A DNA stretch of 34,430 nt, taken from IMG/VR virus record IMGVR_UViG_3300024433_000004, positions 1-34,430 of that record; one strand, 5' to 3'. Below the pieces are notes generated by a model. The model made no database searches. It was not told where the DNA came from and worked only from the letters and a program-made list of their open reading frames with translations. The stretch is from a virus. The position numbers and the translations under genes were made by a program. Numbering within the stretch: the stretch's first letter is position 1; each line of letters starts with the position of its first letter. Shown here piece after piece: positions 1,626 to 31,184 of the stretch.

Positions 1626-2150
1626 ATGGCCGTTGATACGAATACTTATGCCGAACACGAAGACGTCGAACGTCTTATCGGCGACATTGTTTTGAACCGG
1701 ACATTCGACGCGACCACGACGCCCACGCTTGACCAGGTTGAAGCCGAACTGGACAACGCGGCCGCCGACTTGAACCGCGAACTTGACCAGGTCGGTTATA
1801 CCGTCCCCGTGGTCAAAGCCGATTACCCGACCGCCCATAAATTCTTGAAGGCGGCCAATGCTTACGGGGCCGCGGCGGTCTTACTTTCGACCGTCCCGTC
1901 CGAAGGTTACGACCCGACGGAAGAAGTCGAATCCCCCACGGTTGACCGCGCAACGACTTACGGGAACAAGTTCAAGTCGGCTTTGAAGGCAATCCGCGAA
2001 AACCGGTTACGGGCGGGCCGGCGGAAGGCGCGCCTGGGCGATATGTTCGCGGGTTCCCAGGAAACCGAAGACGGGGAAGAAAAGCTTCCCATATTCAAGC
2101 GGGGAATGGACGATTATCCTGGCCGTCGTTCGCTGGTTAATGAAGACTAG
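1626..2150 (+). CDS. head-tail connector (adaptor) protein, HK97 gp6-like
   Basis: The 174-residue protein is helical in its first two thirds. It begins with the short acidic helix typical of adaptors (HEDVERLIGDIV), followed by a long helix with DQVEAELDNAAADLNRELDQ and a region rich in Ala and Tyr, and it ends in a charged tail. Such proteins form the ring under the portal and link it to the neck. The identification rests on helix pattern, size and position just ahead of two neck proteins and the tail genes. A GGGGGG ribosome site precedes the ATG. The family call is moderate; the neck location is more certain than the exact protein. Confidence 0.55.
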   Translation: MAVDTNTYAEHEDVERLIGDIVLNRTFDATTTPTLDQVEAELDNAAADLNRELDQVGYTVPVVKADYPTAHKFLKAANAYGAAAVLLSTVPSEGYDPTEEVESPTVDRATTYGNKFKSALKAIRENRLRAGRRKARLGDMFAGSQETEDGEEKLPIFKRGMDDYPGRRSLVNED

Positions 2151-2159
2151 GGGGGCGTT

Positions 2160-2600
2160 ATGTCGCAAAGAGTAATTGAAGACGCGGTCGTTGCCGTGAT
2201 TAAGCTTCACGACGACTTCGACGATACGAATTGCTTCGCTTACGATAAGCGGGCCCTGGGGAAAGGGCTTGACCGCCTTGTCGTTGTGTCCTTCGGCCAA
2301 ATCAGGCAGGAAAGCATATCCCTTCGAATGAAACGCCGCGTTTGGTCGTTCAACGTTGACGTCCTGGTTCCCTGGCGCGGGGAACTGACCGAACTCGATA
2401 CCAGGGTCGGAACCGAAACCCAAAAGGTCATTGACATACTGGCGAAGTATCCGCGCTTGAACGGGACGGCCAATGTCCAGCGAACGGATATGACCCTTTC
2501 GCCGACCGCCGACGTGATTTCTCACAGGAAGGGGGCTTATCGGGGCCGCCGGCATTCGTTGGACGTCCTGGAATTTTACGACCCACAAAGGGCGGAATAA
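2160..2600 (+). CDS. neck protein, possible tail terminator or head closure
   Basis: The 146-residue alpha/beta protein starts with an amphipathic helix (VIEDAVVAVIKLHDDF). Strands follow, then the segment TQKVIDILAKYPRLNGTANV, a pattern seen in tail-terminator and minor tail U-like proteins, where a helix is followed by a strand describing local measurements of a ring subunit. It ends with a strand LDVLEFYD. It lies between the connector and an HK97 gp10-like protein, so a role joining head and tail is inferred. GGGGGG ahead of the ATG is its ribosome site, and its stop overlaps the next start by one base. It could instead be the head-closure protein. Confidence 0.45.
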   Translation: MSQRVIEDAVVAVIKLHDDFDDTNCFAYDKRALGKGLDRLVVVSFGQIRQESISLRMKRRVWSFNVDVLVPWRGELTELDTRVGTETQKVIDILAKYPRLNGTANVQRTDMTLSPTADVISHRKGAYRGRRHSLDVLEFYDPQRAE

Positions 2601-3103
2601 TGAAAGCGATTGATTACGATTACATCGAATTGTCGCAACTTAATAAACGCGTGAACGAAGCGGGGGATACAATCGCCCGCATTACGTTAAACGAAGGGCT
2701 TCGGAAGTTGGGACGGCTTTTCGTGCCGGCCACGGGGACGGGGCCCCTGGCGAACGCGACCCCCAGGGTATCGGGGAAGCTGAAGCGGTCAACCGTCTTC
2801 CAGATTATCGGCGGGGCAATGCGGCAAGCCCTGGAAATCCGCCAGGCGGCAAAGTCGCCCGAAGGGGTTTATTATGGTTATATCGTCCGTGAAGGACGCG
2901 GGCCCGTTCACGCTATAAACGCGAAGTTCCTTCACTTCTTCATTGGCGACCAGGAATTCTTCCGGAAGTCGGTTGGCCCCGCGCTTCCGAACCCGTATCA
3001 CCGACGCGTCCTTCAAATGCTTATGCCGCAAGTCCAGAAGATAGTTGACGATATGGGCGAAAAAATCGGGGCCTATATCAGCGGGAAGGGGGGTTCTTCA
3101 TGA
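2600..3103 (+). CDS. HK97 gp10-like neck protein
   Basis: The 167-residue protein has the hallmarks of the HK97 gp10 group. There is an N-terminal helix, then a segment like TPRVSGKLKRSTVFQI (in this family, the 'G.L..S' strand after a PxxTGxL region), then an aromatic stretch YYGYIVREGRGP, and finally a helical C-terminus. These proteins act at the portal vertex or neck. The start codon overlaps the previous stop (TAATG), indicating translational coupling. The last four bases overlap the next gene. The family match is by eye from the G.L..S and YG..VE-like pattern, so moderate confidence. Confidence 0.6.
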   Translation: MKAIDYDYIELSQLNKRVNEAGDTIARITLNEGLRKLGRLFVPATGTGPLANATPRVSGKLKRSTVFQIIGGAMRQALEIRQAAKSPEGVYYGYIVREGRGPVHAINAKFLHFFIGDQEFFRKSVGPALPNPYHRRVLQMLMPQVQKIVDDMGEKIGAYISGKGGSS

Positions 3104-3540
3104 GTTATCCGCCCCAGGGAATAGACAAGGCCGACGTCCTGGCGAACCTGGTTGCCGTCGCAACCGAATTGAACGCGATTCGGGCGAAAACGGACGGCCT
3201 GGGGACCCTGACCGAAACGGGGGGAACGCTTACAACTGACGGGAACGAACAAACGCTTTACGTCAACAATGCCCCGTTGGGGGTATTCATTCCGAAGTCC
3301 CTGGATATTGACTTCACGAATCAAACGGCCACGGAAACGGTCGTCATTCGACAATATAAGCGAATGTCTTCGGGCGGCGACTGGATAAAATTCGACGAAT
3401 CTGACCCGTTCGCTGGCGTTCAAGACCCCCTGGGGAAGACAGTCGAATTATTTCCTTCACGCTTCGGAATCAAGGTTACAATCGAAAAGACAGCGGGGGA
3501 CGCGAAGGCATATCCCTGGGAAGTTTTCTTCAAGGTGTAA
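3100..3540 (+). CDS. fibre-like structural protein, paralogue of the gene at 33841
   Basis: The 146-residue protein starts MSYPPQGIDKADV, close to MSFPPQGNKADV at the start of the gene at 33841. Its last 80 residues (LDIDFTNQTATETVVIRQYK) align with the C-terminal beta domain at 290-530. It lacks the long Ala/Leu repeats between these parts, so it looks like a short-shaft version of the same protein. ATG overlaps the previous stop as ATGA, with GGGGGG nearby. A head or tail surface role is likely from position and composition, but no function can be assigned. Confidence 0.7.
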   Translation: MSYPPQGIDKADVLANLVAVATELNAIRAKTDGLGTLTETGGTLTTDGNEQTLYVNNAPLGVFIPKSLDIDFTNQTATETVVIRQYKRMSSGGDWIKFDESDPFAGVQDPLGKTVELFPSRFGIKVTIEKTAGDAKAYPWEVFFKV

Positions 3541-3543
3541 GTT

Positions 3544-4245
3544 ATGAGTTTATACGATAATATAGCATCGAACCGTAAAATGCTTCTGGACCTTCCTTTC
3601 CTGGAAGGCGTCGGGGCCATTACCCAGGACGTCGCGAAACCACATCACCCCGTAACGCTGGTCAATGCCCCGACCTGGGCGTCCCTGGCAAGCGGGAAGT
3701 CCGTCCTGACTTTGAACGGAACGACACAGTACCTTCAATGCTTGAATGCCCTTTGCGCGGACCTGGGCTTTACTGACGGGGATTACAGCGTCGGCGGTTG
3801 GATTGACTGGTCCGATACGGGCAATTCGGAAATCGTAATCGGACGTTGGCAACTCAACGTCGGGGGTTGGGAACTATACTTGACGAAGATTGAAACGGTA
3901 TCCAGCTTAACATTACGTCATCACCACGCGGGCGGGGCTTCAACCAGGACGGCTTGTTATTCCGTCGGTTGGGAACCCGACGTTCCCGTGTTGTTTGGAA
4001 TATCCCGAAGTGGGGGTGAAGCGTTACATTACCGAAACGGCGAAGCCCTGGACGTGGTTACAACGGAAGGCGGCCTGATTGACCCCGAAGCGACGGCTTA
4101 CGACCTGGTAATCGGGACACGCTTCACAAAGGACGCGAACTGGTATAAAAACAACTTCGGGCGATTATTCATTGTGGGCGAAGCCCTTTCCGCAGACGAC
4201 TGGTCGGAAATATACGAATTGGGAAAAGCGGGGTTCGTATTATGA
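3544..4245 (+). CDS. concanavalin/LamG-like lectin domain protein
   Basis: The 233-residue protein reads as a single jelly-roll lectin domain. It has an alternating strand pattern with YSVGGWIDW near residue 80, NGTTQYLQC near 60 and a terminal GRLFIVGEALSADDWSEIYE, the usual ending of LamG-like phage and bacterial surface domains. Such domains bind sugars or serve as capsid or tail decorations. It lies between the neck and tail-tube genes, an odd place for a receptor-binding protein, so a decoration of the tail or neck is possible. It is translated just behind 3100 and overlaps 4242 by 4 bp. Confidence 0.65.
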   Translation: MSLYDNIASNRKMLLDLPFLEGVGAITQDVAKPHHPVTLVNAPTWASLASGKSVLTLNGTTQYLQCLNALCADLGFTDGDYSVGGWIDWSDTGNSEIVIGRWQLNVGGWELYLTKIETVSSLTLRHHHAGGASTRTACYSVGWEPDVPVLFGISRSGGEALHYRNGEALDVVTTEGGLIDPEATAYDLVIGTRFTKDANWYKNNFGRLFIVGEALSADDWSEIYELGKAGFVL

Positions 4246-4733
4246 TTGACAGAATCGGAACATTACGGAAACTGACTTCCAGGCTAACAGCGACCAGGGC
4301 GGGTTATATTGACGATAATTACGACGCGCTACATCACTCGACGCGTATCTTCCCAGGGGATACGTCCCTGGAATGTACGCTGACCGCGGGACAACCCCTG
4401 GATACCTGGTCGGCCTGGGCCGAAATCGTTGACAGCGGGGCGACGACCTTCAGTTCGCTATTGGCCGCGGCCCCTGGTCATATAACCGTTGTTCAGGAAG
4501 AAGAAGTAAGCGACGAAGCGACGCGGTATATGCTTGAAATAGCTTACGGGGCCGCAAAGGTTCCGCTGACTTCACAACGCTTCGCTGGTTCAGGGAAGTT
4601 CCAGAATCCCGATAATCACGCGCGAGTGTTCGGGAATGAAATACCGGCGGGCGAAACGGTTTACTACCGAATGAAAAGCAATACCGCGGTCGCTGATACC
4701 GCGAAAGTCCATATCCGGTATCATCTACATTAA
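4242..4733 (+). CDS. structural protein with fibre-type N-terminal motif
   Basis: The 163-residue protein opens with a short helix containing LTSRLTATRAGYIDD. The same RAGY(L/I)D motif occurs in the repeats of the protein at 33841 and is frequent in phage fibre shafts. The rest is beta-rich, with a Trp/Ala stretch (WSAWAEIVDSG) and an ending KVHIRYHLH. The start overlaps the preceding stop as ATGA, so the two are co-translated. A third fibre-like subunit beside 3100 and 3544 is the best reading; no binding target is visible. Confidence 0.65.
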   Translation: MIDRIGTLRKLTSRLTATRAGYIDDNYDALHHSTRIFPGDTSLECTLTAGQPLDTWSAWAEIVDSGATTFSSLLAAAPGHITVVQEEEVSDEATRYMLEIAYGAAKVPLTSQRFAGSGKFQNPDNHARVFGNEIPAGETVYYRMKSNTAVADTAKVHIRYHLH

Positions 4734-4751: not shown

Positions 4752-5183
4752 ATGACAGAATTATTCGATAGCGGTCAATCGGTCTTCCGAATGGACGACG
4801 CGGGGGGCGACTTTCGGGATTTAACGCCTTACATAATTTCGGTTGACGGGCTTCCTGGGCCGCGGGAACTGGCCGAAGCGACGACCCTTGCCGACGGCGG
4901 GCGGAAGTTTTATCCGACCCTGGAAAACGTGGTCGTAACCCTGGAACTTCTTTGGTCGGACGACGCCCTGGTCGGTTCCGATACCGTCCTGGGCCTACTC
5001 CGGACACACGGTTCGGCTATGTCCTTTGATTATGGCCCTGAAGGGCAGACGGCGGGCGACATAAAATACCACGGGTCGGCCTGGGTTCGGAATTATCAGA
5101 TATTGTCCAGGGTCGGCCAAATGGTAACGGCCCGTTGCGAACTTCAGGTCAATGGGAAAGTTACCCGTGGCACTTACCCATAA
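4752..5183 (+). CDS. tail tube (major tail) protein
   Basis: The 143-residue protein matches the small tail-tube fold by pattern. It has an N-terminal arm (SVFRMDDAGGDFRDLTPYI), then a strand with GLPGPRELAEATTLADGG, then a strand pair VVVTLELLWSDD, then a loop with FDYGPEG and a final beta hairpin. DLTPYI near the start is a common opening of tail-tube proteins of actinophage type. It stands directly ahead of the tail chaperone and tape-measure genes, the expected position. A strong GGGGGG ribosome site fits a protein made in many copies. Confidence 0.75.
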   Translation: MTELFDSGQSVFRMDDAGGDFRDLTPYIISVDGLPGPRELAEATTLADGGRKFYPTLENVVVTLELLWSDDALVGSDTVLGLLRTHGSAMSFDYGPEGQTAGDIKYHGSAWVRNYQILSRVGQMVTARCELQVNGKVTRGTYP

Positions 5184-5237: not shown

Positions 5238-5663
5238 ATGACATACGAACCCGAAACGAAGAAGGTCGAACTGGAAGCGGAAGGCGGCGGGTTCGGGCCG
5301 TTCAAAAAGCGGCCTTATGCCGTCTTTTATGTCGAACTTCGACACGGAACCCAAAAGGCGGTCAACGCCTTGACGCGGCCCTTCCTGAAATACCCTGATA
5401 AGCCGCCGAAGCTTACCATTCAAGGGGACGACGAACCGAAGGTCGAAGGCGGGCAAAGCGTCGCCATTGACTTGACCGCGATAAGTTGGGACGAAGTCAA
5501 CGACGCGATAATCGCCGGCCAGGTCAAGGAATGGTCGTTCGGGCCGGTTGACCAGGCAACGCTTGACGGATTGCCCGAACGGATACGGGAAAGGCTAGTC
5601 AATGAATGTAACTTGCTATATGGGGCATTGGGCCCTTTAGCAAAGGGCGGCGGCGGGAACTAG
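5238..5663 (+). CDS. tail assembly chaperone, G-like short product
   Basis: The 141-residue acidic protein ends LLYGALGPLAKGGGGN just ahead of the tape-measure gene. Like lambda gpG it is the unshifted product of a G/GT pair; such proteins hold the tape measure and recruit tail-tube subunits during assembly and are absent from the virion. The Gly-rich end encodes the slippery region (5630-5648). Ribosome site GAAAGGGGG precedes the ATG. The 54 bp ahead of it hold two TATATACC copies but no clear promoter. Confidence 0.75.
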   Translation: MTYEPETKKVELEAEGGGFGPFKKRPYAVFYVELRHGTQKAVNALTRPFLKYPDKPPKLTIQGDDEPKVEGGQSVAIDLTAISWDEVNDAIIAGQVKEWSFGPVDQATLDGLPERIRERLVNECNLLYGALGPLAKGGGGN

Positions 5664-5860
5664 GGGAAGGGCTTTTCCTGGCCCTGAAGTTACCGAACCG
5701 TTACCGCTTGCCGCCTGAACTGGAAGAAGCATTGGTAATAACTGAAATCGGCTTCCCGCCCCAGGTAATTGACGAATGGCCCCAGGGCCTTATCGAAAAG
5801 ATACTGATTTATAAGGGCGTGAAGAACGTCGTCCAGTTCGGGGGTAACTGGCAACCGTAG
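5238..5860 (+). CDS. tail assembly chaperone, GT-like -1 frameshift product
   Basis: A -1 frame with no start codon of its own is open through the end of the G-like gene and runs to a TAG at 5858-5860, just ahead of the tape-measure ribosome site. A slip at AAAGGGC (5642-5648), or at the stacked sites GGGCCCT or CCCTTTA, would fuse it to the G-like part and give a protein of about 207 residues. The added part continues LPPELEEALVITEIGFPPQ and ends VVQFGGNWQP, the size and place of lambda T. Conserved -1 frameshifting at this locus is established for siphoviruses; its use here is inferred from frame and position. Confidence 0.8.
5630..5648 (+). other. programmed -1 frameshift slippery region
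   Basis: In the zero frame three heptamers fit the X XXY YYZ rule: G GGC CCT (5630-5636), C CCT TTA (5633-5639) and A AAG GGC (5642-5648). The zero frame stops at 5661-5663, and the -1 frame is open to 5860. The GC-rich run GGCGGCGGCGGG directly after the last site may help pausing. Confidence 0.7.
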
Positions 5861-5873
5861 AAGGGGGTTTAAT

Positions 5874-6419
5874 ATGGCACACGAAGCCGCGACGACAATC
5901 GTTCTACGAATGCAGGACGAAGCTTCAGTTCAAATGCAGAATTTCGGGCAAACGACCCAACAAGCGGAAATCCAAAGCCTTCAGTTGAACGCCGCATTAA
6001 CGGCAATGGGGGGCGCGCTGACCGCCATTGGTTCCCTATTGGGTCAACTGGAAAACCCGCTGGCGAAGACGGCGTCAACCTTCTTAATGACAGGCGGGGC
6101 GATACTTATGACTGTTTCCGCAATCGGGACAATGCTTCCGTATATCAAGAACCTGATTGCGACCTTGCGAACCCTGGCGATTGCGCAAGCCATTGTCGCC
6201 GCGCTTACGGGGCCCGTCGGTTGGGCCCGAATCGGAATCGGCCTGGGCGTTGCCGCGGCCGCGACCGCCGGCATTGTCGCCGCGACCGGCGGACTTGGCG
6301 GGGGCGGAACGACCGTCAATATAAGTGCCCAGGCGTTTATGGGTTCGGAATCCGATGCCAGGAAGTTTTCGGAAAAGGTTCAACGCTTCAGTCGCGAAAG
6401 CGAAAGGTTGGGTCGGTAA
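5874..6419 (+). CDS. tape measure protein, unusually short
   Basis: At 181 residues this is a minimal tape measure. It has the N-terminal helical region (LRMQDEASVQMQNFGQTTQQ), a hydrophobic middle with the family-type stretches ALTAMGGALTAIGSLL, TASTFLMTGGAILM and ALTGPVGWARI, a Gly/Ala-rich segment, and the usual C-terminal TTVNISAQAFMGSESDARKF helix with basic end. Tape measures set tail length; siphovirus ones usually have many hundreds of residues, so a very short tail is predicted. It lies between the chaperone pair and the tail hub, with TAA directly abutting the next ATG. Hydrophobicity also fits a membrane-inserting role on injection. Confidence 0.75.
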   Translation: MAHEAATTIVLRMQDEASVQMQNFGQTTQQAEIQSLQLNAALTAMGGALTAIGSLLGQLENPLAKTASTFLMTGGAILMTVSAIGTMLPYIKNLIATLRTLAIAQAIVAALTGPVGWARIGIGLGVAAAATAGIVAATGGLGGGGTTVNISAQAFMGSESDARKFSEKVQRFSRESERLGR

Positions 6420-9044
6420 ATGGGTTTGACACAGATTGACAGCGGCGAATTCGAAGATACCCTTTGCGGCGAACTGGACATTAAGCATATCGCCGGAACC
6501 GTTTACGCGATTGCCCATATGGGGGTTGACTACGACGGGTTCCTTCGGACGATAAACATTGCCGCTGATGGGACAATCGGAGCCCAAATAGACGAACACG
6601 AATACGATACCGTCCTGGGTTATACAAACACACTATTCGCCCTTCCGAACGTCGCGAACGGTTACATTATCGGTTATCAGGGAAGCGGGAGCGACGGCTG
6701 GCTGAAGACCTTTACAATCCAGGACAATGGAACCATAGCGGAAGTTGACAGCTACGAAATTGACGCGACTTACGGGCGGCATTTCCAGTTCTACCACCTG
6801 GGCGGAACCGTGTATTTGGTCGCTTACCAGCAAGCCGCTTACGGTTGGTTCAAGACAATAAATATCAATAACGACGGGACTTTCGGGGCCCTTATTGGCG
6901 CGCAAAAGTATGACGGCGTGTTGGGCGCGTTCCCGTCGCTTCGTCATATTTCAGGGGACATATTCGCCGTCGCTTATACCGGCCCTGGAAGCGACGGTTG
7001 GCTGAAGACGTGGGAAATACAGGCTGACGGGACAATCGAAGTGGCCCCAGGGACGGATTCTTTTGAATTCGATACCGTTTTTGGTGCCCACCCCAAGCTT
7101 ATTCATATTTCGGGAACCGTTTACGCCATAGTTTACCAGGGCCCGCCCGACCTCACGACGGGACAAGGTTTTATGAAGACCTTGACGATTGCCGCCAATG
7201 GGACAATCGGGGCGGTCATTCAGACCTGGAATTTTAGTCCGCCTCAACGTTGTTTGAATCCAAAAATTATTGACCTGGGGGATAACATCTTCGCAGTAAC
7301 TTACGGCTGGTATACTCTACCGACCGGCCGAACCTTCACGGTTCAAATTGACAACGACGGGACAATTCAGACGGCGACGCAGGACGAAGTTACATTCGAC
7401 GCGGTAAGATGCCAGGACTCTAGCGTCCTGAGAATCGGGACTTCAAAGTCTTATATTATCGCTTATATCGGCCCCGACGACGACGGCTGGCTTGCCACAA
7501 TGACCGCCCTTCCCGACGCCCTGGTCATTACGCTGGCGGGCCTGGACGTAACTTCGAAAACCCTGGCCGTAAGAACGGAACGCGGCCAGGATTCTGAATT
7601 AGCACAAGCAACCGCCGGCGTTTGTGAACTCGTTTGCGACAATCAGAATGGCGACTTCAGTCCCGAAAACGCGGCCGGCCTGTATTACGGGACGCTTGCC
7701 CTGGGGAAAGTCATTGAGGTTTATGAAGATTACGGGGGCGTCCGATATAGGCACTTCACGGGCCGGATTGAAAAGATAACGCCCCATGGGGAAACGGAAA
7801 ACCTGGTCGCTTTTATCACGGCCCTTGACGGTATGAACGACCTGGCCCAACTGGAAATCAATACGGTTCTTCGGTCGGATACCGAAAGCGGGACGCTTGT
7901 TGGCGACATACTGGACGCCGCGGCGTGGGCGGCGGGCGACCGCGATATAGACACGGGGGTTGATACCCTTCAACTTGGCTGGTTCCATAAACTCAAGGCT
8001 CTGGCCGCGCTTCGCATTCTGGAACAAATCGAACTCGGCCGCTTCTATATCACGCCGGCGGGGGTCGCTACCTGGGAAAACCGGCACGCGCGCTTGACGG
8101 GGGCGGGCCTGGTAAGCCAGCACGACTTCGAAGATACCCCCGTCGAATTGGCTTATGAATGGTCGAAGAAGCTTGTCTATAATCAGGTCGTCGTCCGCGG
8201 CCGGCGTTATTTTATCGGGGGCGTCCAGCTTGTTTCGGGTTACGATATGGGGACGATTGAAGACGAACTTATTTGGTCGGCCCATACCGGCGATTCGGGG
8301 GCCCCGCTTATCAGCAAGCAGGGAAGCCTGGTCTTATGGGCCGAATTCGGGTCGCCGCTTCAGTCTTACGATAGCCTGGCCCAAGGGACGCATTGGAACG
8401 CCAACACCGAACCCGACAAGACGGGCAACGATGTTTCGGATAATATTACCCTGGTTCAAACTCAATACGGGCAAAGCGTGAAGCTTAAATTCAGCAATGC
8501 GGGGAACCAAAGCGCGTATTTGGTTGTTCCCGATACCCCGCCCCTGGGGGCTCCGACGGGCCGAACCGCCCTGGTTTACGGCGTCCTTTATTCCGTCGAA
8601 GTAATGGCAATCGCGGAAGAAGATACGGATAGCCAGGACGATTACGGGAAGCGCGGTCTTAATCTGGACGTTCCCTTCAAATCGAACCCGAACGACATTC
8701 AGGCCCAGGCCCAATTCCTTTTGGCGAAGTATGACGACGCCGTCCCCAGGGCGATTTCCGTTAGACATACCGCGCGGACGGCCTGGCCCGATACTACGAT
8801 AAGGGTTCAATGCTTGTCGCGGGACATTTCCGACCGGATAACCCTGAAGTCAACGAAATTGGGCGTTGATACCGATTACTATATCAACAAGATAATTCAG
8901 GAATACTTATTGAATGAAGGCGGCTTCGTTCACGAAACGACCTGGATTATCGAACGGGCCCTGGGCGACGCTGAAGGCGTCTTCTGGCTTTTGGGCCTTG
9001 CGGGGTTCGGGGAATTGTCCGAAACGACCAGGCTTGGAATATAA
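6420..9044 (+). CDS. tail hub/baseplate protein with N-terminal seven-bladed propeller
   Basis: The 874-residue protein has two parts. Residues about 20-364 contain seven units of about 50 residues with the pattern I.H..G.VYA..Y.G...DGWLKT..I..DGTI, which reads as a beta-propeller; the last unit is incomplete and merges with the next domain. From about residue 367 (DALVITLAGLDVTSKTLAVR) a tail-hub type protein begins, with ERGQDSEL, DNQNGDFSPEN, a FTGRIEKITP strand and a LRILEQIELGRFYITPAG segment, as in gp27/Tal-like tail proteins. Its ATG follows the tape-measure stop directly. No separate Dit gene is seen, so this protein probably forms most of the tail tip. The propeller may bind the host surface; that is inference. 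Confidence 0.75.
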   Translation: MGLTQIDSGEFEDTLCGELDIKHIAGTVYAIAHMGVDYDGFLRTINIAADGTIGAQIDEHEYDTVLGYTNTLFALPNVANGYIIGYQGSGSDGWLKTFTIQDNGTIAEVDSYEIDATYGRHFQFYHLGGTVYLVAYQQAAYGWFKTININNDGTFGALIGAQKYDGVLGAFPSLRHISGDIFAVAYTGPGSDGWLKTWEIQADGTIEVAPGTDSFEFDTVFGAHPKLIHISGTVYAIVYQGPPDLTTGQGFMKTLTIAANGTIGAVIQTWNFSPPQRCLNPKIIDLGDNIFAVTYGWYTLPTGRTFTVQIDNDGTIQTATQDEVTFDAVRCQDSSVLRIGTSKSYIIAYIGPDDDGWLATMTALPDALVITLAGLDVTSKTLAVRTERGQDSELAQATAGVCELVCDNQNGDFSPENAAGLYYGTLALGKVIEVYEDYGGVRYRHFTGRIEKITPHGETENLVAFITALDGMNDLAQLEINTVLRSDTESGTLVGDILDAAAWAAGDRDIDTGVDTLQLGWFHKLKALAALRILEQIELGRFYITPAGVATWENRHARLTGAGLVSQHDFEDTPVELAYEWSKKLVYNQVVVRGRRYFIGGVQLVSGYDMGTIEDELIWSAHTGDSGAPLISKQGSLVLWAEFGSPLQSYDSLAQGTHWNANTEPDKTGNDVSDNITLVQTQYGQSVKLKFSNAGNQSAYLVVPDTPPLGAPTGRTALVYGVLYSVEVMAIAEEDTDSQDDYGKRGLNLDVPFKSNPNDIQAQAQFLLAKYDDAVPRAISVRHTARTAWPDTTIRVQCLSRDISDRITLKSTKLGVDTDYYINKIIQEYLLNEGGFVHETTWIIERALGDAEGVFWLLGLAGFGELSETTRLGI

Positions 9045-13598: not shown

Positions 13599-14111
13599 AT
13601 GAGAAGGTTAACAAAAACAGAAATCAAACTTAAACTTGAGTTTCATGGCAAGTGGTTAAAAAATGAAGAAGGCGGTGAGGAAGCCGACCTTCAGGGAGCC
13701 GACCTTCAGGGAGCCAACCTTCAGAGAGCCGACCTTCGGAGAGCCAACCTTCAGGGAGCCAACCTTCAGGGAGCCGACCTTCGGGGAGCCGACCTTCAGG
13801 GAGCCAACCTTCGGAGAGCCGACCTTCAGGGAGCCAACCTTCAGGGAGCCAACCTTCGGGGAGCCGACCTTCGGGGAGCCGACCTTCGGAGAGCCGACCT
13901 TCGGGGAGCCGACCTTCGGGGAGCCGACCTTGACTTCTCTAGTTGGCCTTTATGGTGTGGTTCTAAAAACGTTAAAATAGATTTGAGATTAGCGATGCAG
14001 TTAGCGGCGCATTTCTGCGCGGTTGAATGTGAAGACCCTGAATATCAAACGGCTAGAAAGGCAATTTTTAAGTTCGCGCTAAAAAGCCATATAGCTGAAT
14101 ATTTAAAATAG
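13599..14111 (+). CDS. pentapeptide repeat protein
   Basis: The 170-residue protein contains about 17 successive pentapeptides of type A(D/N)L(Q/R)(G/R), residues 29-112, which should fold as a right-handed quadrilateral helix. A C-terminal helical domain follows ([20 protein letters not shown]). Some pentapeptide proteins mimic DNA and protect gyrase; whether this one does is unknown. GGGGG precedes the ATG. With the HNH gene it forms an AT-richer insert between native genes. Confidence 0.85.
13682..13930. repeat. 15-bp tandem DNA repeat encoding the pentapeptides
   Basis: The unit GGAGCC(A/G)ACCTTC(A/G)G repeats about 16 times almost without drift, so copy number can change by slippage and the array may be collapsed or expanded in assembly. 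Confidence 0.9.
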
Positions 14112-16203: not shown

Positions 16204-17040
16204 ATGAGTAAATTGAAGGTGTTATCGCTAGGTGCAGGAGTCCAATCAAGTACTCTGTTATTGATGGCCTGCAAGGATGAGATTGAGAAGCCTGATGTGG
16301 CGATATTTGCCGATACTGGGTGGGAAAGTGGAGCTACATACAAGCACCTTGATTGGTTGAAAATAGAAGCAGGGAAATATGGCATCCCTGTAATCATAGT
16401 CCAAGAATATAATATCAAGTATGACTGCCTTAATGGCTCAGAGTTACATCATGGGATGTATCTTATGCCAATATTTATGCGTCTAAATGGCAAGTTATCT
16501 ATCGGGAAACGACAATGCACTTCAAATTATAAGATACGCCCTCTATATCATAAGGTACGAGAGTTGCTTGGGGTGTCAAGAAGGGCTCGCTTACCTAAAG
16601 ATGCTTTAGAGCTTTGGATTGGCATTAGCTTGGATGAGAGCCAGCGTATTTATAATGCTACGGCGGGGTGGGTATTTAACCGCTTCCCACTCGCTGAAAG
16701 ATTTATGACTCGTAATGACTGTGAATTATGGTTGCATAATAATTACCATATCACAGTTCCCAAAAGCTCCTGTGTTGGTTGTCCTTATCACGATAAACGA
16801 TGTTGGCAGGATATATATTCAGTTCCCGATGAATGGGCAGATGCGGTATTAGTAGACGAAGCGATAAGGCATGGACACCCTCGATATGAGCAATTCCTTC
16901 ACAATTCTGGGAGGCCATTAGCAGAAATAGATTTACGCACACCTGAAGATAGGGGGCAGATACCATTTGATTTTTACAAACAGGAGAGAATTACGCTATT
17001 TGCCAAGAGCAATCCATTATGGTTGCCGAGTAATCATTGA
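16204..17040 (+). CDS. PP-loop ATPase, PAPS reductase/DndC-like
   Basis: The 278-residue protein has the PP-loop SLGAGVQSSTLLL (residues 8-20), then VAIFADTGWESGATYKHL, the segment QCTSNYKIRP, and a C-terminal Cys cluster SSCVGCPYHDKRCW. This is the adenine-nucleotide alpha-hydrolase fold of PAPS reductases, DndC and thiolation enzymes; enzymes of this group activate or transfer sulfur with ATP. Phage members are frequent but their substrate is mostly unknown. Base use (many GAG, AT-richer) differs from the phage backbone and the gene is flanked by 16-bp direct repeats, so it was acquired recently. The upstream region has no clear GGGGG ribosome site. Confidence 0.8.
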   Translation: MSKLKVLSLGAGVQSSTLLLMACKDEIEKPDVAIFADTGWESGATYKHLDWLKIEAGKYGIPVIIVQEYNIKYDCLNGSELHHGMYLMPIFMRLNGKLSIGKRQCTSNYKIRPLYHKVRELLGVSRRARLPKDALELWIGISLDESQRIYNATAGWVFNRFPLAERFMTRNDCELWLHNNYHITVPKSSCVGCPYHDKRCWQDIYSVPDEWADAVLVDEAIRHGHPRYEQFLHNSGRPLAEIDLRTPEDRGQIPFDFYKQERITLFAKSNPLWLPSNH

Positions 17041-19387: not shown

Positions 19388-19523
19388 AGCCGCGGTTGAA
19401 ATCCGCGACCAGGCCGAAAGGGAATGGATACGGGTATTCGCCGCCTTGAAGCTGGAAGTCCTGAAGGCTTCCCGATTTATCGAAATGGGAAAGGGGGTAA
19501 TTTGGAATGATATACGAAACTAG
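19368..19523 (+). CDS. small helical protein
   Basis: A 51-residue frame starting at GTG 19368 with GCGAAAGGGGG at 19353-19363 ahead of it. It overlaps the end of the resolvase and the start of the SplB-like gene. The sequence is one long amphipathic helix (EIRDQAEREWIRVFAALKLE). Because the ribosome site is so clear I accept the gene; its function is unknown. Confidence 0.6.
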   Translation: MEIGNFEAAVEIRDQAEREWIRVFAALKLEVLKASRFIEMGKGVIWNDIRN

Positions 19524-20310
19524 CGGGCGCGCCCGTGAATACTTCGAACTGGCGGCCAACTTATATTCGGGTTGCGAACACGCTTGCCGGTATTGCTACG
19601 GGGCGGCCGTAACCCGCAAAGACCCGACGGAATTCTTCGGTCGGGCGGTTCCCAGGAAAGGGGGCGAAGGGCCCCTGGAAGCGACCCTGGTCGAACTGGA
19701 ACGGGACGCGTTTCGCCTGGCCCGAAATAATGAAACGCGGCATATCCTTTTATCGTTCGTAACCGACCCGTATCAACCCGCCGAAGCCAAATTCGAGTTG
19801 ACCAGGCGGGCCATTAAAATACTACATAAGAACGGCCTGGCGGTCGCGATACTGACGAAGGGCGGTTGGCTGGCGACCAGGGACTTCGACATTCTAACCA
19901 GGGCCGACTTATTCGGAACGACCTTGACCTTCTTTGACCCGAAGCGTTCCCGCGAATGGGAACCAGGGGCGGCCCTTCCTTCTATGCGAATCAAGTCCCT
20001 GGAAGACGCGAAGGCCCGCGGGATTCAAACCTGGGTATCCCTGGAACCAGTGATTGACCCCGCGGAATCCCTGGCCCTGATTGAAGCGACGGCGAAGTTC
20101 GTTGACGTATTCAAGGTCGGGACGCTGAATTACCAGGGGAAGCTTCCGCGGGAACTTCAGGCCCAGGTTTACCGGATAGACTGGAAGAACTTCGCCCGAA
20201 ACGTGGTCATACTACTTGACCGCCTGGGGGCGAACTATTATATCAAGTGCGACCTGGCGAAGCATATCGGGCGGCCTGAAGGGATAACGGTCGGGAACGT
20301 CCCGAAATAA
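19507..20310 (+). CDS. radical SAM protein, SplB/photolyase-like (COG1533 type)
   Basis: The 267-residue protein has CxxxCxxC at Cys23, Cys27, Cys30 (YSGCEHACRYCYG), which binds the 4Fe-4S cluster that cleaves SAM. ILLSFVTDPYQPAEAKFELT and ILTKGG follow, both typical of the spore photoproduct lyase-like group often annotated as DNA repair photolyase. True SplB repairs spore photoproduct in DNA; the substrate here is unknown, and a DNA-lesion or base-modifying reaction is inferred. GGGGG precedes the ATG. A palindrome follows the stop. Confidence 0.8.
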   Translation: MIYETSGRAREYFELAANLYSGCEHACRYCYGAAVTRKDPTEFFGRAVPRKGGEGPLEATLVELERDAFRLARNNETRHILLSFVTDPYQPAEAKFELTRRAIKILHKNGLAVAILTKGGWLATRDFDILTRADLFGTTLTFFDPKRSREWEPGAALPSMRIKSLEDAKARGIQTWVSLEPVIDPAESLALIEATAKFVDVFKVGTLNYQGKLPRELQAQVYRIDWKNFARNVVILLDRLGANYYIKCDLAKHIGRPEGITVGNVPK

Positions 20311-23129: not shown

Positions 23130-23333
23130 ATGATAAAAGGTAACTATTGTCAACCAAAGTGTCCAGAAGTTACCTTGACCCTGGACGAATTCTTAATGCT
23201 GGACGCCGCCCAAAGGGTCGCCGGCGCTTTGGGTTTTACAATGACCTGGGAAAAGACGGTCGCCGGCCTTATAATTGGAATGGGAAGGTCGAATGAAAGT
23301 GCTATTGATAGACGCCGACGGGAAGCTTCCTAA
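23130..23333 (+). CDS. small protein of unknown function
   Basis: A 67-residue frame from ATG 23130; a longer version would start at TTG 23091, directly behind the previous stop. Neither has a clear ribosome site. The sequence has two Cys (NYCQPKCPEVT), a helical DEFLMLDAAQRVAGALGFTM and ends in the next gene, overlapping it by 41 bp. The start is uncertain and the role unknown. Confidence 0.5.
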   Translation: MIKGNYCQPKCPEVTLTLDEFLMLDAAQRVAGALGFTMTWEKTVAGLIIGMGRSNESAIDRRRREAS

Positions 23334-24174
23334 TATCGCCCTTCACAAGTTGGCAATATGGCATAGACGCCAGGGCGACGAAGTAACCTGGGATATGCCG
23401 CTTTTCCTGAATCAAGCAGACAAGGTTTACATTTCAACCATACTGACGAAGACCTGGCCGAAGGTCGAAAACCTGGTCGGGTTGCGGCCCGATGCCGTCG
23501 TTGGCGGGACGGGAACGTGGGGCTTCATTGACCCGCCGCCGAAGCTTCCCTTCGAAGTCGAAGTGGTCAAAGCGCGTATAAATTATGGCTTCACGACGCG
23601 GGGTTGTATTCGCCATTGTCCATTTTGCATTGTTCCCCAGGTCGAAGGAAATATTCGCGCGGTCGGCGATATATTCGACATTTGGGACGGGAAGGCGAAG
23701 GCATTGACGTTGTTTGATAACAATATCCTGGCCCTTCCCGACCATTTCAAAACCATTGTTGAACAACTGTTTTCCAACGGTTTGTCCGTTGATTTCAACC
23801 AGGGCCTTGATATTCGATTGATAAATGAAGCGACGCTTCTATTGTTGCAGAAGCTTAAAATGCGGCGGCTTCGATTCGCCTTCGACGACCCGAAGCTGGC
23901 CCCGCTAATCGAAGAAAAGGTTGCTATGATTCGCCAGGCGCGATTGAATAGGGACGTGTTCTTTTATGTCCTGGTCGGCTTCAATACCACTTGGGAAGAA
24001 GACCAGGCGCGATTGAACCTTATTCGCCGCCTGGGTTGTCGCGCTTATGTAATGAAATACGAAAGCATTCGCCGCGACCGCCGTTATATCGAGTTGTCGC
24101 GTTGGGCGAATATGTTTTGGTCTTTCGCCAAATATGAATTCGAAGACTTCAGAAGGGATATTGGTGAATGGTAA
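23293..24174 (+). CDS. radical SAM protein
   Basis: The protein has 293 residues. The N-terminal 95 residues (MKVLLIDADG, DAVVGGTGTWG) resemble the nucleotide-like N-domain found ahead of radical SAM cores. The core starts with TTRGCIRHCPFCIVPQVEG (Cys105, Cys109, Cys112) and has LFDNNIL, FNQGLDIRLIN and FYVLVGFNTTWEED, the strand ends of a radical SAM barrel. Substrate unknown. ATG 23293 is preferred to TTG 23275 for its GGGAAGG spacing. It ends 7 bp into the TerL gene, so it is co-translated with packaging genes. Confidence 0.8.
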   Translation: MKVLLIDADGKLPNIALHKLAIWHRRQGDEVTWDMPLFLNQADKVYISTILTKTWPKVENLVGLRPDAVVGGTGTWGFIDPPPKLPFEVEVVKARINYGFTTRGCIRHCPFCIVPQVEGNIRAVGDIFDIWDGKAKALTLFDNNILALPDHFKTIVEQLFSNGLSVDFNQGLDIRLINEATLLLLQKLKMRRLRFAFDDPKLAPLIEEKVAMIRQARLNRDVFFYVLVGFNTTWEEDQARLNLIRRLGCRAYVMKYESIRRDRRYIELSRWANMFWSFAKYEFEDFRRDIGEW

Positions 24175-25649
24175 CACGAACGCCGTATCTATACAAAGAC
24201 GCCGCGGTTGCCGCCGGAATCCGGCAACGTGAAGACGCGACCAACTGGACGCGGACGCCCGCGACCCTGGGGGCCCACATATCCCGCGGGGCTTACGAAC
24301 GCGTCCGGCATATTGACTTCCTGGCCGACCGTATCGCGGAAGTGGCCGACCGGCCCGTCTTCCTGGTTATCACTATTCCGCCCCAACACGGCAAGTCGGA
24401 ACTTGTGTCCCATTGGACGCCCGTTTGGTTCCTGAAGAAGTTCCCCTGGAAGAAGGTCGGCCTGGCGTCTTATGAAATGGGCTTTGCTTCCGAATGGGGC
24501 GGCAAGGCGAAGGATACCATAAACGATAACGCCGACGATTTGGGCCTGGAACTTCGCCAGGACACGAAGGCGAAGGGCCGCTGGAACCTTCGCGGGTATG
24601 GCGGCGGAATGTTCGTCGCGGGTATCGGGGGCCCTTTCACGGGCCGCGGCTTCGACCTGATTATCATTGACGACCCGATTAAAAACGACGCTGAAGCCCT
24701 TTCAGACGTTTACCGCCGGCGGAACTGGAACTGGTATCGAACCGTCGCCCGAACCAGGCTTGCCCCTGGCGGTTCGATAATCGTCATTATGACACGCTGG
24801 CACGAACAAGACCTGGCGGGGGCCTTGTTGGGGAATCCGCCTGAAGAAGACCAGGAACCGGTTATCGAAGAAGACGTCGCCCCCGACCCGTGGGAAGTAA
24901 TCAACCTTCCCGCCCTGGCGGAAGAAAACGACCCCCTGGGCCGGAAACCAGGGGAAGCCCTTTGGCCCGAACGATACGACGAAGCCGCCCTGAAGCGTTC
25001 CAGAATGGCCGCTGGCCCCTTCTGGTGGACGGCCCAATACCGCGGCAAGCCGCAACCCGAAGGCGGCGGTATAATCAAAACTGGTTGGTTCAAATCCTAT
25101 TCTGAAGAAGACCTTCCCGCGTCGTTTTCCAGCACGATTCAGATATGGGACACGGCTTATAAAGAACAACAAAGGCACGACCGGTCGGCGTGTTTGACCC
25201 TGGGAATGACACGTCGCCCGACCAGGTATTTCGTCCTGGACTTATTCGTCCGGCGAATGATATTCCCCGACCTGGTTCGGGCTTGTCAAGCCAATTATGA
25301 CAAATGGGAACCCGACCGCGTCCTGATTGAAGATAAGGCGTCGGGGATTTCGCTTATTCAGCAAGTCCGCCGCGATACGACCGTCCCAATGCGGGCGGTC
25401 AAGGCGGTTGACGATAAGATAACGCGGGCCCATACCGTAACCGGTATAATGGAAGCGGGCCAGGTCTTAATCCCCGTCCGCGCTTCCTGGTTGGCCGACT
25501 TCCTGAAGGAAATCGGGGACTTCCCGACGGGGGCCCACGACGACATTGTGGACGTCCTGGTTCACGGCTTGCGATACTTCAAGCCGCGGTTGAAAGGACT
25601 GGAAGCTGGCGTCCAAACGGAACCGAAAACTTCACGCTGGCGGGAATGA
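24168..25649 (+). CDS. terL: terminase large subunit
   Basis: The 493-residue protein has the Walker A motif PPQHGKSE (residues 71-78), the Walker B FDLIIIDDP (D168/D169) and a coupling motif MTRWHEQD. A C-terminal RNase H-like nuclease follows with acidic residues in IWDTAYKE (D328), LIEDKASG (E388/D389) and GAHDDIVD (D458/D459). It translocates DNA into the head and cuts it. The order TerS-TerL-portal is standard. Length and motifs are complete. Confidence 0.95.
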   Translation: MVTRTPYLYKDAAVAAGIRQREDATNWTRTPATLGAHISRGAYERVRHIDFLADRIAEVADRPVFLVITIPPQHGKSELVSHWTPVWFLKKFPWKKVGLASYEMGFASEWGGKAKDTINDNADDLGLELRQDTKAKGRWNLRGYGGGMFVAGIGGPFTGRGFDLIIIDDPIKNDAEALSDVYRRRNWNWYRTVARTRLAPGGSIIVIMTRWHEQDLAGALLGNPPEEDQEPVIEEDVAPDPWEVINLPALAEENDPLGRKPGEALWPERYDEAALKRSRMAAGPFWWTAQYRGKPQPEGGGIIKTGWFKSYSEEDLPASFSSTIQIWDTAYKEQQRHDRSACLTLGMTRRPTRYFVLDLFVRRMIFPDLVRACQANYDKWEPDRVLIEDKASGISLIQQVRRDTTVPMRAVKAVDDKITRAHTVTGIMEAGQVLIPVRASWLADFLKEIGDFPTGAHDDIVDVLVHGLRYFKPRLKGLEAGVQTEPKTSRWRE

Positions 25650-25677
25650 CCAGCCGTGAACTATCGAACGTATCAAC

Positions 25678-25706
25678 TTGACACTTTCGAAAAACCGAAG
25701 TAATAT
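25678..25706 (+). promoter_or_regulatory. strong sigma70-type promoter ahead of the head operon
   Basis: TTGACA (25678-25683), a 17-bp spacer and TAATAT (25701-25706), 43 bp ahead of the portal start. This is the closest match to consensus in the window and likely drives the structural genes. Confidence 0.75.
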
Positions 25707-25749
25707 TATTGACAAGGGCCCGAAATCTACCCGAAGGGGGGTTCGATAA

Positions 25750-27171
25750 ATGGTTAATGAAAAGCGACCAGGTTACACCCCGCCCGACCCAAATTCAAAA
25801 CGAAGTCAACGCCGCCTGACTGAAGGGCGGCGTTCGCATAAATACCAGGACGGCGGGAATGTCCGGACGATTATCGGCGTTACCGGCCTGAAGCATATCG
25901 GCGGCCGGATACGGGAAGAATACCGGAACGCGCTTAAAAACTGGTCAACCGAAGTCAAGCTATACCTGGAAATGAGGGACGACCCGATTATCGGGGCCCT
26001 GACTGACGCAATCAAGCTTCCCCTTCAGGCCGCTTCCTTCGACATTGAGGCGGCCCCAGGCGGAAGCCCGAACGACGAAGCCGCCGCCGAATGGCTTTGG
26101 GAAGTGTTGAATAATATGGAAAGCCAACCGTGGATTTCCCACGTCGAAGACGCCCTGGAATGCCTGGACTTCGGCTTTGCCCTGAGCGAAATCGTCCTGG
26201 ACAAGCGGGCCGACGGCCGGCTTTGGCTGAAGAACATTGACCCGCGCGGCCAGGAAAGCTTGAACCGTTGGGAATACGACAAAGACGAAAAGGACAAGCT
26301 TGTTTCCTTCGTCCAGAATGACCCGAACACGGGAAGCCAATATGATATTCCGATTGCCAAATGCCTTCACTTCAAATATAGGGGCCGGAAGGGGAATCCC
26401 CAGGGGCATTCGATTCTTAGTGCCCTTTATCGGCCTTATAAGTTCGCGCGTAACCTGGAAGACCTGGAAGGAATCGGGATTGAACGCGACGTCGGCGGAA
26501 TGCCGATTGCGAAGCTAAAAGAAGGCGGCTATGAAGAAGCGGACATTAACGCGCTGAAAACCGCGCTGAAGGGGCTTCGGAAGGACGAAGAAGTTTACCT
26601 GATTGAACCCGAAGGCGTTGACATACGCGCTTACGGGGGCGGGTCGAAGATATACGACGTCAACCAGGTAATTGACCGCTGGCATAAAGTAACCTTAATG
26701 CGGTTCTTCGCCCAATTCCTGATTTTAGGAATGGGGAACGTCGGAACCCAGGCCCTTGTCAAAGGTTCCCAGGACTTCTTCGTGCTAGTCCTGGAAGCCG
26801 TTCAACGTTACCTTCTGGAAACCTGGAACCTTCAGCTTGTCCCGTATCTTTTCAAGTTCAACGCCTGGGAAGGGATTTCCGGATACCCGACAATCGTTTG
26901 GGAAAAGCCAGGCAAGATTGACCTGGCGGGGTTACTCAATTCGCTGAATACCGCGGTCGGGGCGAAGCTATTCACGCCGACCGATATTGACGAAGACCAT
27001 ATTCGGGGGATTGCCGACCTTCCGGAACTTCCCGAAGAAGAACGGGGGGCCCCGCGGGACGTTGAAGCCCCGCCAATGGGGGGCCTTTTTGACCTTCCGC
27101 GTAAAATGGACGACCTGGGCGATAAGGTCGGTTCGATTGAAAAGGAACTGGCCCTGGCGGGGGAACGTTAA
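25750..27171 (+). CDS. portal protein, Mu gp29/DUF935-like
   Basis: The 473-residue protein has the DUF935-type pattern: LYLEMRDDPIIGALTDAIKL, then WEVLNNMESQPWISHVEDAL, DFGFALSEIVLDK, FKYRGRKGNPQGHSIL and a long helical part ending with RFFAQFLILGMGNVG and DQVNQVIDRWH-like helices. Portals form the ring through which DNA enters. The MuF-like gene that follows supports this family. GGGGGG precedes the ATG. Confidence 0.85.
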   Translation: MVNEKRPGYTPPDPNSKRSQRRLTEGRRSHKYQDGGNVRTIIGVTGLKHIGGRIREEYRNALKNWSTEVKLYLEMRDDPIIGALTDAIKLPLQAASFDIEAAPGGSPNDEAAAEWLWEVLNNMESQPWISHVEDALECLDFGFALSEIVLDKRADGRLWLKNIDPRGQESLNRWEYDKDEKDKLVSFVQNDPNTGSQYDIPIAKCLHFKYRGRKGNPQGHSILSALYRPYKFARNLEDLEGIGIERDVGGMPIAKLKEGGYEEADINALKTALKGLRKDEEVYLIEPEGVDIRAYGGGSKIYDVNQVIDRWHKVTLMRFFAQFLILGMGNVGTQALVKGSQDFFVLVLEAVQRYLLETWNLQLVPYLFKFNAWEGISGYPTIVWEKPGKIDLAGLLNSLNTAVGAKLFTPTDIDEDHIRGIADLPELPEEERGAPRDVEAPPMGGLFDLPRKMDDLGDKVGSIEKELALAGER

Positions 27172-27308
27172 TGAAGAAGAAGCTTCTTTGCTTATTCAGG
27201 CACGATTGGGGGCCCTGGCGATTACACCCGTGTTATGGCGACCGCGACATTCGCCGTTGTATCCGTTGCGGGCATTCCCAGGAAAGGAAGGTCGGGACGA
27301 AATGGTAA
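27171..27308 (+). CDS. small zinc-finger protein
   Basis: A 45-residue frame starting on the last base of the portal stop and ending inside the next gene. It reads CLFRHDWGPWRL, then CYGDRDIRRCIRCGHSQERK, a pattern of small phage proteins with HDW and CxRCG...Q. Size and overlaps suggest a real, co-translated gene; role unknown. Confidence 0.65.
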   Translation: MKKKLLCLFRHDWGPWRLHPCYGDRDIRRCIRCGHSQERKVGTKW

Positions 27309-28138
27309 CGGCATTGAAACGACGCCGGCCGTTCTTCAAGGCCCGCCCGAAGGCGGGGCAAAAGCAACGTATCGGTTCCGGAACCTATGAAGAAAAGACG
27401 AACCGCCAGCAACGGAAGCTTGTCCGCGTCTTTGACCAATGGGCCGCCGCGCTGAAGCGCGAAATCGCGGCCAGGTCAAGCCGTGGGGCGACCCTTCCTG
27501 AATTGTCCGCTTACCTGGACGCCCAAATCCCGAAGCTGGAAACGCGCCTGGTCGAAATTATGAATGCCGGCACGACTTCAGCCGTGAAGACCGCCGCGGG
27601 CTCACGGGCCGAACTTCCCGCAATCCTGGCCCTGGCCGAACGGCGGAAGGAAGAAAACCTGGCAATGGTTCGGGACAACCTGGTTCCGAAGGTTCACGAA
27701 AAGTTGACCCTGGGCCTGGCCGCCGCGGTTCCCGCCCTTATCATTGGACGGGGCCTGGCCGTCGAACAACAAAAGGCCGTTTCCCTGGCGATTAAGAACG
27801 CGACCGCCGCTTCCAGGAATGCCCCCGCCCAGTATGCCGGCGGTTATTGGGTAATGCTTTTCGAAACGGAAAAGACCCTGGGCGGTATCCGCGAAGACGA
27901 ACGGGCGGCTGAAGGACTGGCCCCCGAACCGGTCAAATGGAACCTTGACCCGCGGGCCGTTCATTGTAAGCCGTCCCCTGGGTTTTACGGTTGTCCCCAA
28001 CTGGCCGGCGAATACCCTGGCGGCTGGCGAACGCTTCCAACCGTGCCCGCTGGACAAGTAACGTGTAGGGGAAATTGCAGATGTACAGTTTCGGTTTTTA
28101 GAGATGGCGAATGGCGACGTGGAGTATATGACGATTAA
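27302..28138 (+). CDS. MuF-like minor head protein
   Basis: The protein has 278 residues. ATG 27302 is chosen over a longer in-frame start inside the portal gene because GGAAAGGAAGG lies ahead. It has an N-terminal basic region and a long helical middle (about 40-200). The MuF-type C-terminus reads NLDPRAVHCKPSPGFYGCPQ, then LPTVPAGQVTCRGNCRC, the Cys-rich phage head morphogenesis signature. MuF proteins lie inside the capsid near the portal. Its place between portal and protease is as in Mu-like head modules. Confidence 0.8.
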   Translation: MVTALKRRRPFFKARPKAGQKQRIGSGTYEEKTNRQQRKLVRVFDQWAAALKREIAARSSRGATLPELSAYLDAQIPKLETRLVEIMNAGTTSAVKTAAGSRAELPAILALAERRKEENLAMVRDNLVPKVHEKLTLGLAAAVPALIIGRGLAVEQQKAVSLAIKNATAASRNAPAQYAGGYWVMLFETEKTLGGIREDERAAEGLAPEPVKWNLDPRAVHCKPSPGFYGCPQLAGEYPGGWRTLPTVPAGQVTCRGNCRCTVSVFRDGEWRRGVYDD

Positions 28139-28156
28139 ACGAAAGGGGGATTATCA

Positions 28157-28378
28157 ATGAATCCAGAAACGGGAATTGTAAGGGAACTATTGGAAGGTGA
28201 AAAGCCGAAACCTGGGGAAGTGTTAGTAAATAAACCACGGCCCGATTGCCCCAGGTGTGAAGGAAGGGGGTCAATCCCGAAGGAAGAAGCGACCCGACCC
28301 GAACGACGTCGGGCGGAAAAGGCGGGCTTGCCATTGTGGGCGAAGTTTATTCCTTGCCCTGAATGTAATCCTGATTGA
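28157..28378 (+). CDS. small zinc-finger protein
   Basis: The 73-residue protein has CPRCEGRGSI (residues 31-40) and a CPEC at 68-71, with a basic helix between them, forming a DnaJ-like or rubredoxin-like zinc site. ACGAAAGGGGG precedes the ATG. Unknown role within the head operon. Confidence 0.7.
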   Translation: MNPETGIVRELLEGEKPKPGEVLVNKPRPDCPRCEGRGSIPKEEATRPERRRAEKAGLPLWAKFIPCPECNPD

Positions 28379-28394
28379 AACCGAAGGGGGCGAA

Positions 28395-28598
28395 TTGATA
28401 AACGGCGACGTCATATATTGTTCCTGCTGTGGCACACAGAAAATGGCTGAAATCGTCGGCGATAACCTGGTTATCAAAGACCGCCGGCACGGGGTAAAAC
28501 ACGTCGCCGTTATCCCGATTTCCGAATTACTTGACATTTTGAAAACCAGGGCCGATAATAGTTTCAAAGACCAGGCCGCGGTTGCGGCGAAGATTTAA
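28395..28598 (+). CDS. small zinc protein, Com-like layout
   Basis: The protein has 67 residues. TTG 28395 with CCGAAGGGGG ahead is chosen; the longer frame from 28257 overlaps the previous gene. It begins MINGDVIYCSCCGTQKM, with Cys9, Cys11 and Cys12, then VGDNLVIKDRRHGVKH and a helix. The layout recalls small Cys-containing regulators such as Mu Com, but with too few Cys for a sure call. Confidence 0.55.
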   Translation: MINGDVIYCSCCGTQKMAEIVGDNLVIKDRRHGVKHVAVIPISELLDILKTRADNSFKDQAAVAAKI

Positions 28599-28645
28599 CA
28601 ACTGAATATCAGGCGGCTTGACCGCCCGAAAGTTGGCCCGACCGA

Positions 28646-28684
28646 CCCCGAAGACGGATACACGTCCTTCGGGGTTATTTTTTG
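28646..28684 (+). terminator. intrinsic terminator inside the head operon
   Basis: CCCCGAAGACG and CGTCCTTCGGGG form a stem with one bulged base and a short loop, followed at once by TTATTTTTT. This is the most canonical Rho-independent terminator in the window. It lies upstream of the protease, cement and capsid genes, so it probably works as an attenuator. Confidence 0.75.
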
Positions 28685-28703
28685 GCCTGGTCGGGGGCCC
28701 GAA

Positions 28704-28961
28704 ATGGAGTGTCCGAATTGCAAACGGAACGAAACCGAAGAACTGAAGGAACTATCCCGCGGAATGGGGAACCAGGCGTTCGTCAAATGCCTAAATTGCG
28801 GGACGGTCATTTTGTGTTCGGGCGAAATCATAACGCAATACTGGCCGAACGGCCAGGAAGGGGGTAACGAATGTCGCCATTTGGCCCATACGCAACCTTC
28901 GACGAATGCGTCGCAAAGAACCAGGACAAGTCCAGTCCCGAAGGCTTTTGCGCCTGGCTAG
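28704..28961 (+). CDS. small zinc-ribbon protein
   Basis: The 85-residue frame has CPNCKRNE (residues 3-10) and KCLNCGTVILC (29-39), a plain zinc ribbon. GGGGG lies 6 bases ahead of the ATG. The last 30 residues overlap the start of the protease gene in another frame and look of low complexity. The zinc part is convincing, the exact end less so. Confidence 0.55.
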   Translation: MECPNCKRNETEELKELSRGMGNQAFVKCLNCGTVILCSGEIITQYWPNGQEGGNECRHLAHTQPSTNASQRTRTSPVPKAFAPG

Positions 28962-30700: not shown

Positions 30701-30746
30701 GCGGGGGCCAGGTCAAACAAAATCTAAGTAAGGGGGAATTCTCAAA

Positions 30747-31145: not shown

Positions 31146-31184
31146 TCCGTGTCATTGAAATACTGAAAAGGGGGAATCGAACAA

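Follow-up and report, generated by a model that had tools for sequence, protein, structure and literature searches.

Here, we describe a real, selected, and clade-wide miniature tape measure, encoded by a viral genome that was analyzed as one window of 34,430 bases comprising the whole of IMG/VR record IMGVR_UViG_3300024433_000004. The short form occurs in at least 31 contigs including this record, and in the window it has 181 residues. Very probably, the protein is a true miniature tape measure of a siphovirus-type tail, which would dock on the hub, serve a tube of few rings, and have lost its middle from a longer ancestor. On balance we also favor a broader reading, in which the whole clade pared its tape measure to a head-side end, a membrane module, and a hub anchor, so that the complete assembly line of a siphovirus yields a tail with only 2 to 7 rings. 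The features concerned are the following.

1626 to 3103, plus strand: three neck/tail-completion candidates (1626 to 2150, 2160 to 2600, and 2600 to 3103), in conserved synteny 5' of the tube gene
4752 to 5183, plus strand: tube (major tail) protein of 143 aa, matching the major tail family phrog_10528 (E 2e-20) and sharing 26% identity with gp62 of Arthrobacter phage Kovu
5238 to 5663, plus strand: putative short form (G-like) of the tail assembly chaperone, 141 aa, from position, conservation in relatives, and frameshift architecture
5633 to 5639, plus strand: heptamer C CCT TTA, the predicted slippery site, in a phase that fits a -1 slip
5640 to 5860, plus strand: putative -1 frame chaperone extension (T-like), about 73 codons, 43 to 95% identical in relatives
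5874 to 6419, plus strand: miniature tape measure protein, 181 aa, its parts mapped from conservation and a helix-only low-confidence model
6291 to 6416, plus strand: last 42 residues of the tape measure, hub-tracking, type A
6420 to 9044, plus strand: predicted tail hub, 874 aa, type A, gp27/gp44-type from about residue 368, with a repeat-rich N-terminal part
24168 to 32147, plus strand: head genes, with terminase large subunit at 24168 (PHROGs E 6e-98), portal at 25750 (4e-63), head protease at 28871 (2e-15), and major capsid protein at 31185 (4e-74)

The gene lies in the slot of a tape measure. It has 181 codons and an ATG start with a ribosome-site-like run, GAAGGGGG, a few bases upstream, and it starts directly past the chaperone frameshift extension with the hub gene on its 3' side, giving the order tube gene, G/GT-type chaperone, -1 extension, 181-aa open reading frame (ORF), and gp27-like hub. 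The G/GT chaperone arrangement precedes tape measures in lambda-like phages. Within the clade, 23 chaperone genes carry a CCCTTT[A/G/T] heptamer at this phase (a count that leaves out L025), and the predicted -1 frame extension is open for 70 to 73 codons; the sister branch formed by L066 and L069 carries A AAA AAA in its place. Among the neck candidates, the product of 2600 to 3103 shows a weak match to phrog_5 Neck1 (E 0.027). The head gene set is ordinary.

For the hub, the C-terminal 507 residues match gp27/gp44-type folds in the PDB at E 8e-8 to 1e-3, from a model with a pLDDT of 48. Foldseek matches of this low-confidence model include Mu gp44, MuSo2 43 kDa, T4 gp27, and the HFTV1 tail, and the 33 PDB matches at E<=0.001 are mostly phage, tailocin, or VgrG hubs, all consistent with a gp27/gp44-type hub fold. 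Sequence similarity is seen to Microcystis and Thermobifida phage proteins. The N-terminal third (6420 to 7500) consists of propeller-like repeats and is occupied by other domains in relatives, where hubs reach about 1559 aa and the tape measure stays short.

Several other regions of the window were noted in passing. A three-gene insert at the neck/tube junction (3100 to 4733) is absent from that place in most relatives and includes a LamG-like protein (3544 to 4245); in L010 and L019, a relative of the 4242 protein is encoded 5' of the neck genes. Motifs of the GAAAAGGGGGAAA type, a strong ribosome-site-like consensus, recur just 5' of start codons at 4733, 19488, 22868, 32206, and 33822 (23 bases each). 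We also observe a pentapeptide-repeat protein (13599 to 14111), whose five-residue unit, resembling A-D-L-Q/R-G, is encoded by a 15-base tandem repeat. The ORFs at 16204 to 17040, 19507 to 20310, and 23275 to 24174 specify a protein resembling PAPS reductase (phrog_424, 8e-39) and a pair of radical-SAM-like proteins; one matches phrog_9298 (E 2e-63). A fibre-like ORF (33842 to 34430 plus 1 to 534) spans the record ends, and its 321-base internal repeat makes the repeat number uncertain. Since the exact 41-base repeat at the record ends sits within this fibre-gene repeat, circular closure is likely but unproven.

Within the 181-aa protein we distinguish an N-terminal helix (residues ~1 to 57), a hydrophobic module (~64 to 138), a Gly-rich linker, and a C-terminal end (~146 to 181). 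The short family conserves an R-M-x-D-E-A-S region near the N terminus, an AL[ST]GPxGW motif closing the hydrophobic module, the linker, and the C-terminal end. Kyte-Doolittle maxima over 19 residues reach 1.7 to 1.8 at 70 to 88 and 94 to 112, and 1.66 at 118 to 136, so that membrane-like segments are present. The AlphaFold model is helix-only with a pLDDT of 42 and was used for secondary structure only. Against PHROGs, the protein gives weak matches to phrog_5218 (unknown function, E 0.0017) and the tape-measure family phrog_1533 (E 0.11). The former was dropped as evidence, being unspecific and also matching in 10 of 14 control genomes. A link to tape-measure families runs through the homologue in L069, which matches both phrog_1533 (E 2e-6) and the short family (3e-12).

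When profiles were compared directly, the tape measures of Kovu, Mae-JY09, and P1312 showed no significant similarity to the short protein, no PDB chain was found with the short-family profile at E<=1, and PF10145 (the PhageMin_Tail core domain) has no match in the 181-aa protein. A long central helical or repeat region is typical of tape measures, though not universal; with this region and PF10145 missing, filing the protein as a tape measure rests on its slot and its ends. Slot, ends, and the L069 link together support the ORF as the tape measure of a siphovirus-type tail. This bears out the first-pass annotation, which had named a tape measure accompanied by tube, chaperone, and hub genes: phrog_10528, the in-phase slippery site, and the predicted hub fold account for all three. 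The profile search that it had proposed gave weak direct matches and an indirect link through L069.

The missing middle is seen against two longer homologues in the same slot. L069 and L071 (IMG/VR 3300031654_000092 and 3300031278_000111), which are 97% identical contigs from different metagenome records, encode a tape measure of 391 aa. That of L066 has 224 aa, and the neck, tube, and chaperone proteins of this phage are 40 to 78% identical to those of L069. BLAST aligns residues 1 to 81 of the two tape measures with each other (E 2e-6) and residues 72 to 224 of L066 with 234 to 391 of L069 (E 8e-17). Aligned in this way, the proteins have matching ends, and a single central block of ~150 residues is present in one and absent from the other. 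The earlier description of a protein that keeps both ends and lacks its middle was thus right, but it took no note of the hydrophobic module that has been retained or of the match between C terminus and hub. L069 and L071 resemble the short family in neck, tube, and chaperone order and in the two tape measure ends, and they differ in the extra block, the A AAA AAA site, and repeated tube genes. The tube gene is present in two tandem copies in L066 (3518 to 4392) and three in L069 (1959 to 3651), where one copy carries an extra N-terminal ~150 residues.

More distant homologues have 707 and 869 aa, and distant relatives span 707 to 1657 aa overall; the tube outgroup L045 has a 1303-aa tape measure with a PF10145 core. 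In the tube-protein tree, the long-tape outgroups (L045 and Kovu) separate from the clade at 98/98 support, and L066 and L069 branch apart from the 26 remaining rows, all of which are short. Shrinkage from a longer ancestor is the simplest reading, with loss of the middle as the most likely route to the short length.

The C-terminal ends fall into three types, and the hubs likewise into three. Based on the last 42 residues, the nearest neighbor has the same hub type in all 25 phages compared (25/25; mean AUC, 0.98). Controls perform less well, at 16/25 for the first 60 residues and 18/25 for both all but the last 55 residues and the tube protein (AUC, 0.61 to 0.68). The clearest case is L037, whose N-terminal part is nearest a type-B phage while its end and hub are both type A. 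Because the last 42 residues track hub type better than the rest, the C terminus is supported as the predicted hub-docking end. However, the two genes are adjacent and linked, so that a single recombination can move C terminus and hub together without any docking requirement. A sign test for co-switching on the tube tree had low power, with two supported pairs, only two of the type switches falling on well-supported branches.

We propose that the tail would start when the tape measure C terminus docks on the hub, after which the frameshifted chaperones would load tube protein around the tape measure. The short N-terminal helix and hydrophobic module may then reach across only a few rings of the tube, which the neck would finally close. 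Hydrophobic parts of other tape measures have a proposed role in membrane passage, and the retained module may act in the same step at infection. Length would have been reduced by central loss from a longer ancestor and then held by selection.

What tail such a ruler would give can be estimated from published calibrations. At 0.15 nm per residue (PMC4569894), 181 residues yield an upper value of 27 nm; on the TP901-1 line (slope 0.145 nm per residue, tail length reaching zero at 127 residues; PMC5099701), they yield about 8 nm, and a refit of five of the TP901-1 points with the parent at 937 residues yields about 4 nm. With its tape measure of ~216 residues, the gene transfer agent RcGTA builds five tube rings of 3.8 nm, and its tail measures 49 nm once the baseplate is counted (PMC7296036), so the TP901-1 line may understate short tails. 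Taken together, these values lead to a strong prediction of a stubby version of the long-type tail, ~8 to 27 nm or ~2 to 7 rings. The first-pass annotation had also suggested a transition between long- and short-tailed forms. This holds only in the sense of shortening within a siphovirus-type tail and was otherwise overstated: the clade is stably short with siphovirus-type genes, has RcGTA as a precedent, and does not represent a morphological transition, which is also not needed to explain the short tail.

Alternatively, the protein could be a plug or needle and no ruler, the few rings being set by geometry or by tube and terminator in a podovirus-like manner. In RcGTA, the tape measure shows a likeness both to tape measures and to the P22 needle (PMC7296036), and 181 residues lie near the 127-residue zero-tail extrapolation of TP901-1. 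We consider this unlikely, as tube gene and frameshifted chaperone pair, both associated with polymerization along a tape measure, are retained in the clade, and the 391-aa homologue shows a middle of variable length between fixed ends. Less probable still is that tail length is set by more than the 181-aa protein, through a longer tube or another virion protein that extends the ruler. Self-polymerization of the SPP1 tube protein gp17.1 (PMC8718954) lends this some plausibility. Against it, no other long tape-measure-like ORF is seen in the 34.4-kb genome, where the other large ORFs that could be assigned encode hub, terminase, portal, head protease, and capsid, and PF10145 finds nothing at E<=1 in seven genomes (this one and six near-full-length relatives of 32 to 36 kb), in which a second tape measure, the finding that would have spoken against the original call, was thus not detected.

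The miniature tape measure is conserved across the clade. Homologues of 180 to 224 aa, with identity down to ~35 to 40%, occupy the same slot in 30 other viral contigs, most of them divergent in sequence and from different metagenome records, and contig 3300009529_000943 encodes an identical protein. Against four relatives, the dN/dS of the gene is 0.16 to 0.21, below most tube and hub comparisons, which indicates purifying selection. No long version was found in the main clade among the contigs sampled, and genome scans for a prophage or host link gave no relative. Longer homologues do exist in distant relatives, but with 30 mostly separate records carrying the short form at this dN/dS, an assembly or sequencing deletion of a long gene in this contig, an artefact that the first-pass annotation had wished to see checked, has a negligible chance of being the explanation and is rejected. 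In L065, an extra gene (2418 to 2948) sits between tape measure and hub; it is absent in the other members examined.

If the miniature tape measure is what it appears to be, the clade would provide a natural example of a minimal siphophage tail, close to the theoretical limit of zero tail, in which the C-terminal hub-docking tip is exchangeable. Tape measures perform several jobs together, and these would be separated in a clade that has retained chaperone, tube, and hub but little of the ruler; what remains should approach the minimum required to initiate the tail, bind the chaperones, and pass the membrane. The agreement of the last 42 residues with hub type points to a docking site that can be tested, and the pair of 224 and 391 aa represents a natural length experiment. 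The clade would also show to what extent a long-tail system may approach podovirus dimensions with its gene set unchanged.

Among known systems, Arthrobacter phage Kovu has a homologous tube (26%), a two-part chaperone, a tape measure, and a minor tail protein in the same order, although its tape measure has 1243 aa and no significant similarity to the 181-aa protein. In TP901-1, whose tape measure of ~937 residues (810 + 127) goes with a 118-nm tail, mutations define the minimal needs as the N-terminal end, the C-terminal end, and the first hydrophobic region, the same kinds of parts that the 181-aa protein keeps (PMC5099701); the published minimum of 154 N-terminal and 60 C-terminal residues, however, exceeds the whole of the latter. 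No other short tape measures were found in the open-access subset of the literature. By length and description, the RcGTA tape measure of Rhodobacter capsulatus (Rcc01694, g11) is comparable, with ~216 residues and a long-tail-type tube of five rings (PMC7296036). It is described as having a helix of 113 residues together with a beta section and a short helix, whereas the short family has a conserved hydrophobic module, and it belongs to a gene transfer agent particle, whereas the short family is encoded in virus genomes. By this analogy, RcGTA is a precedent for a named tape measure this short.
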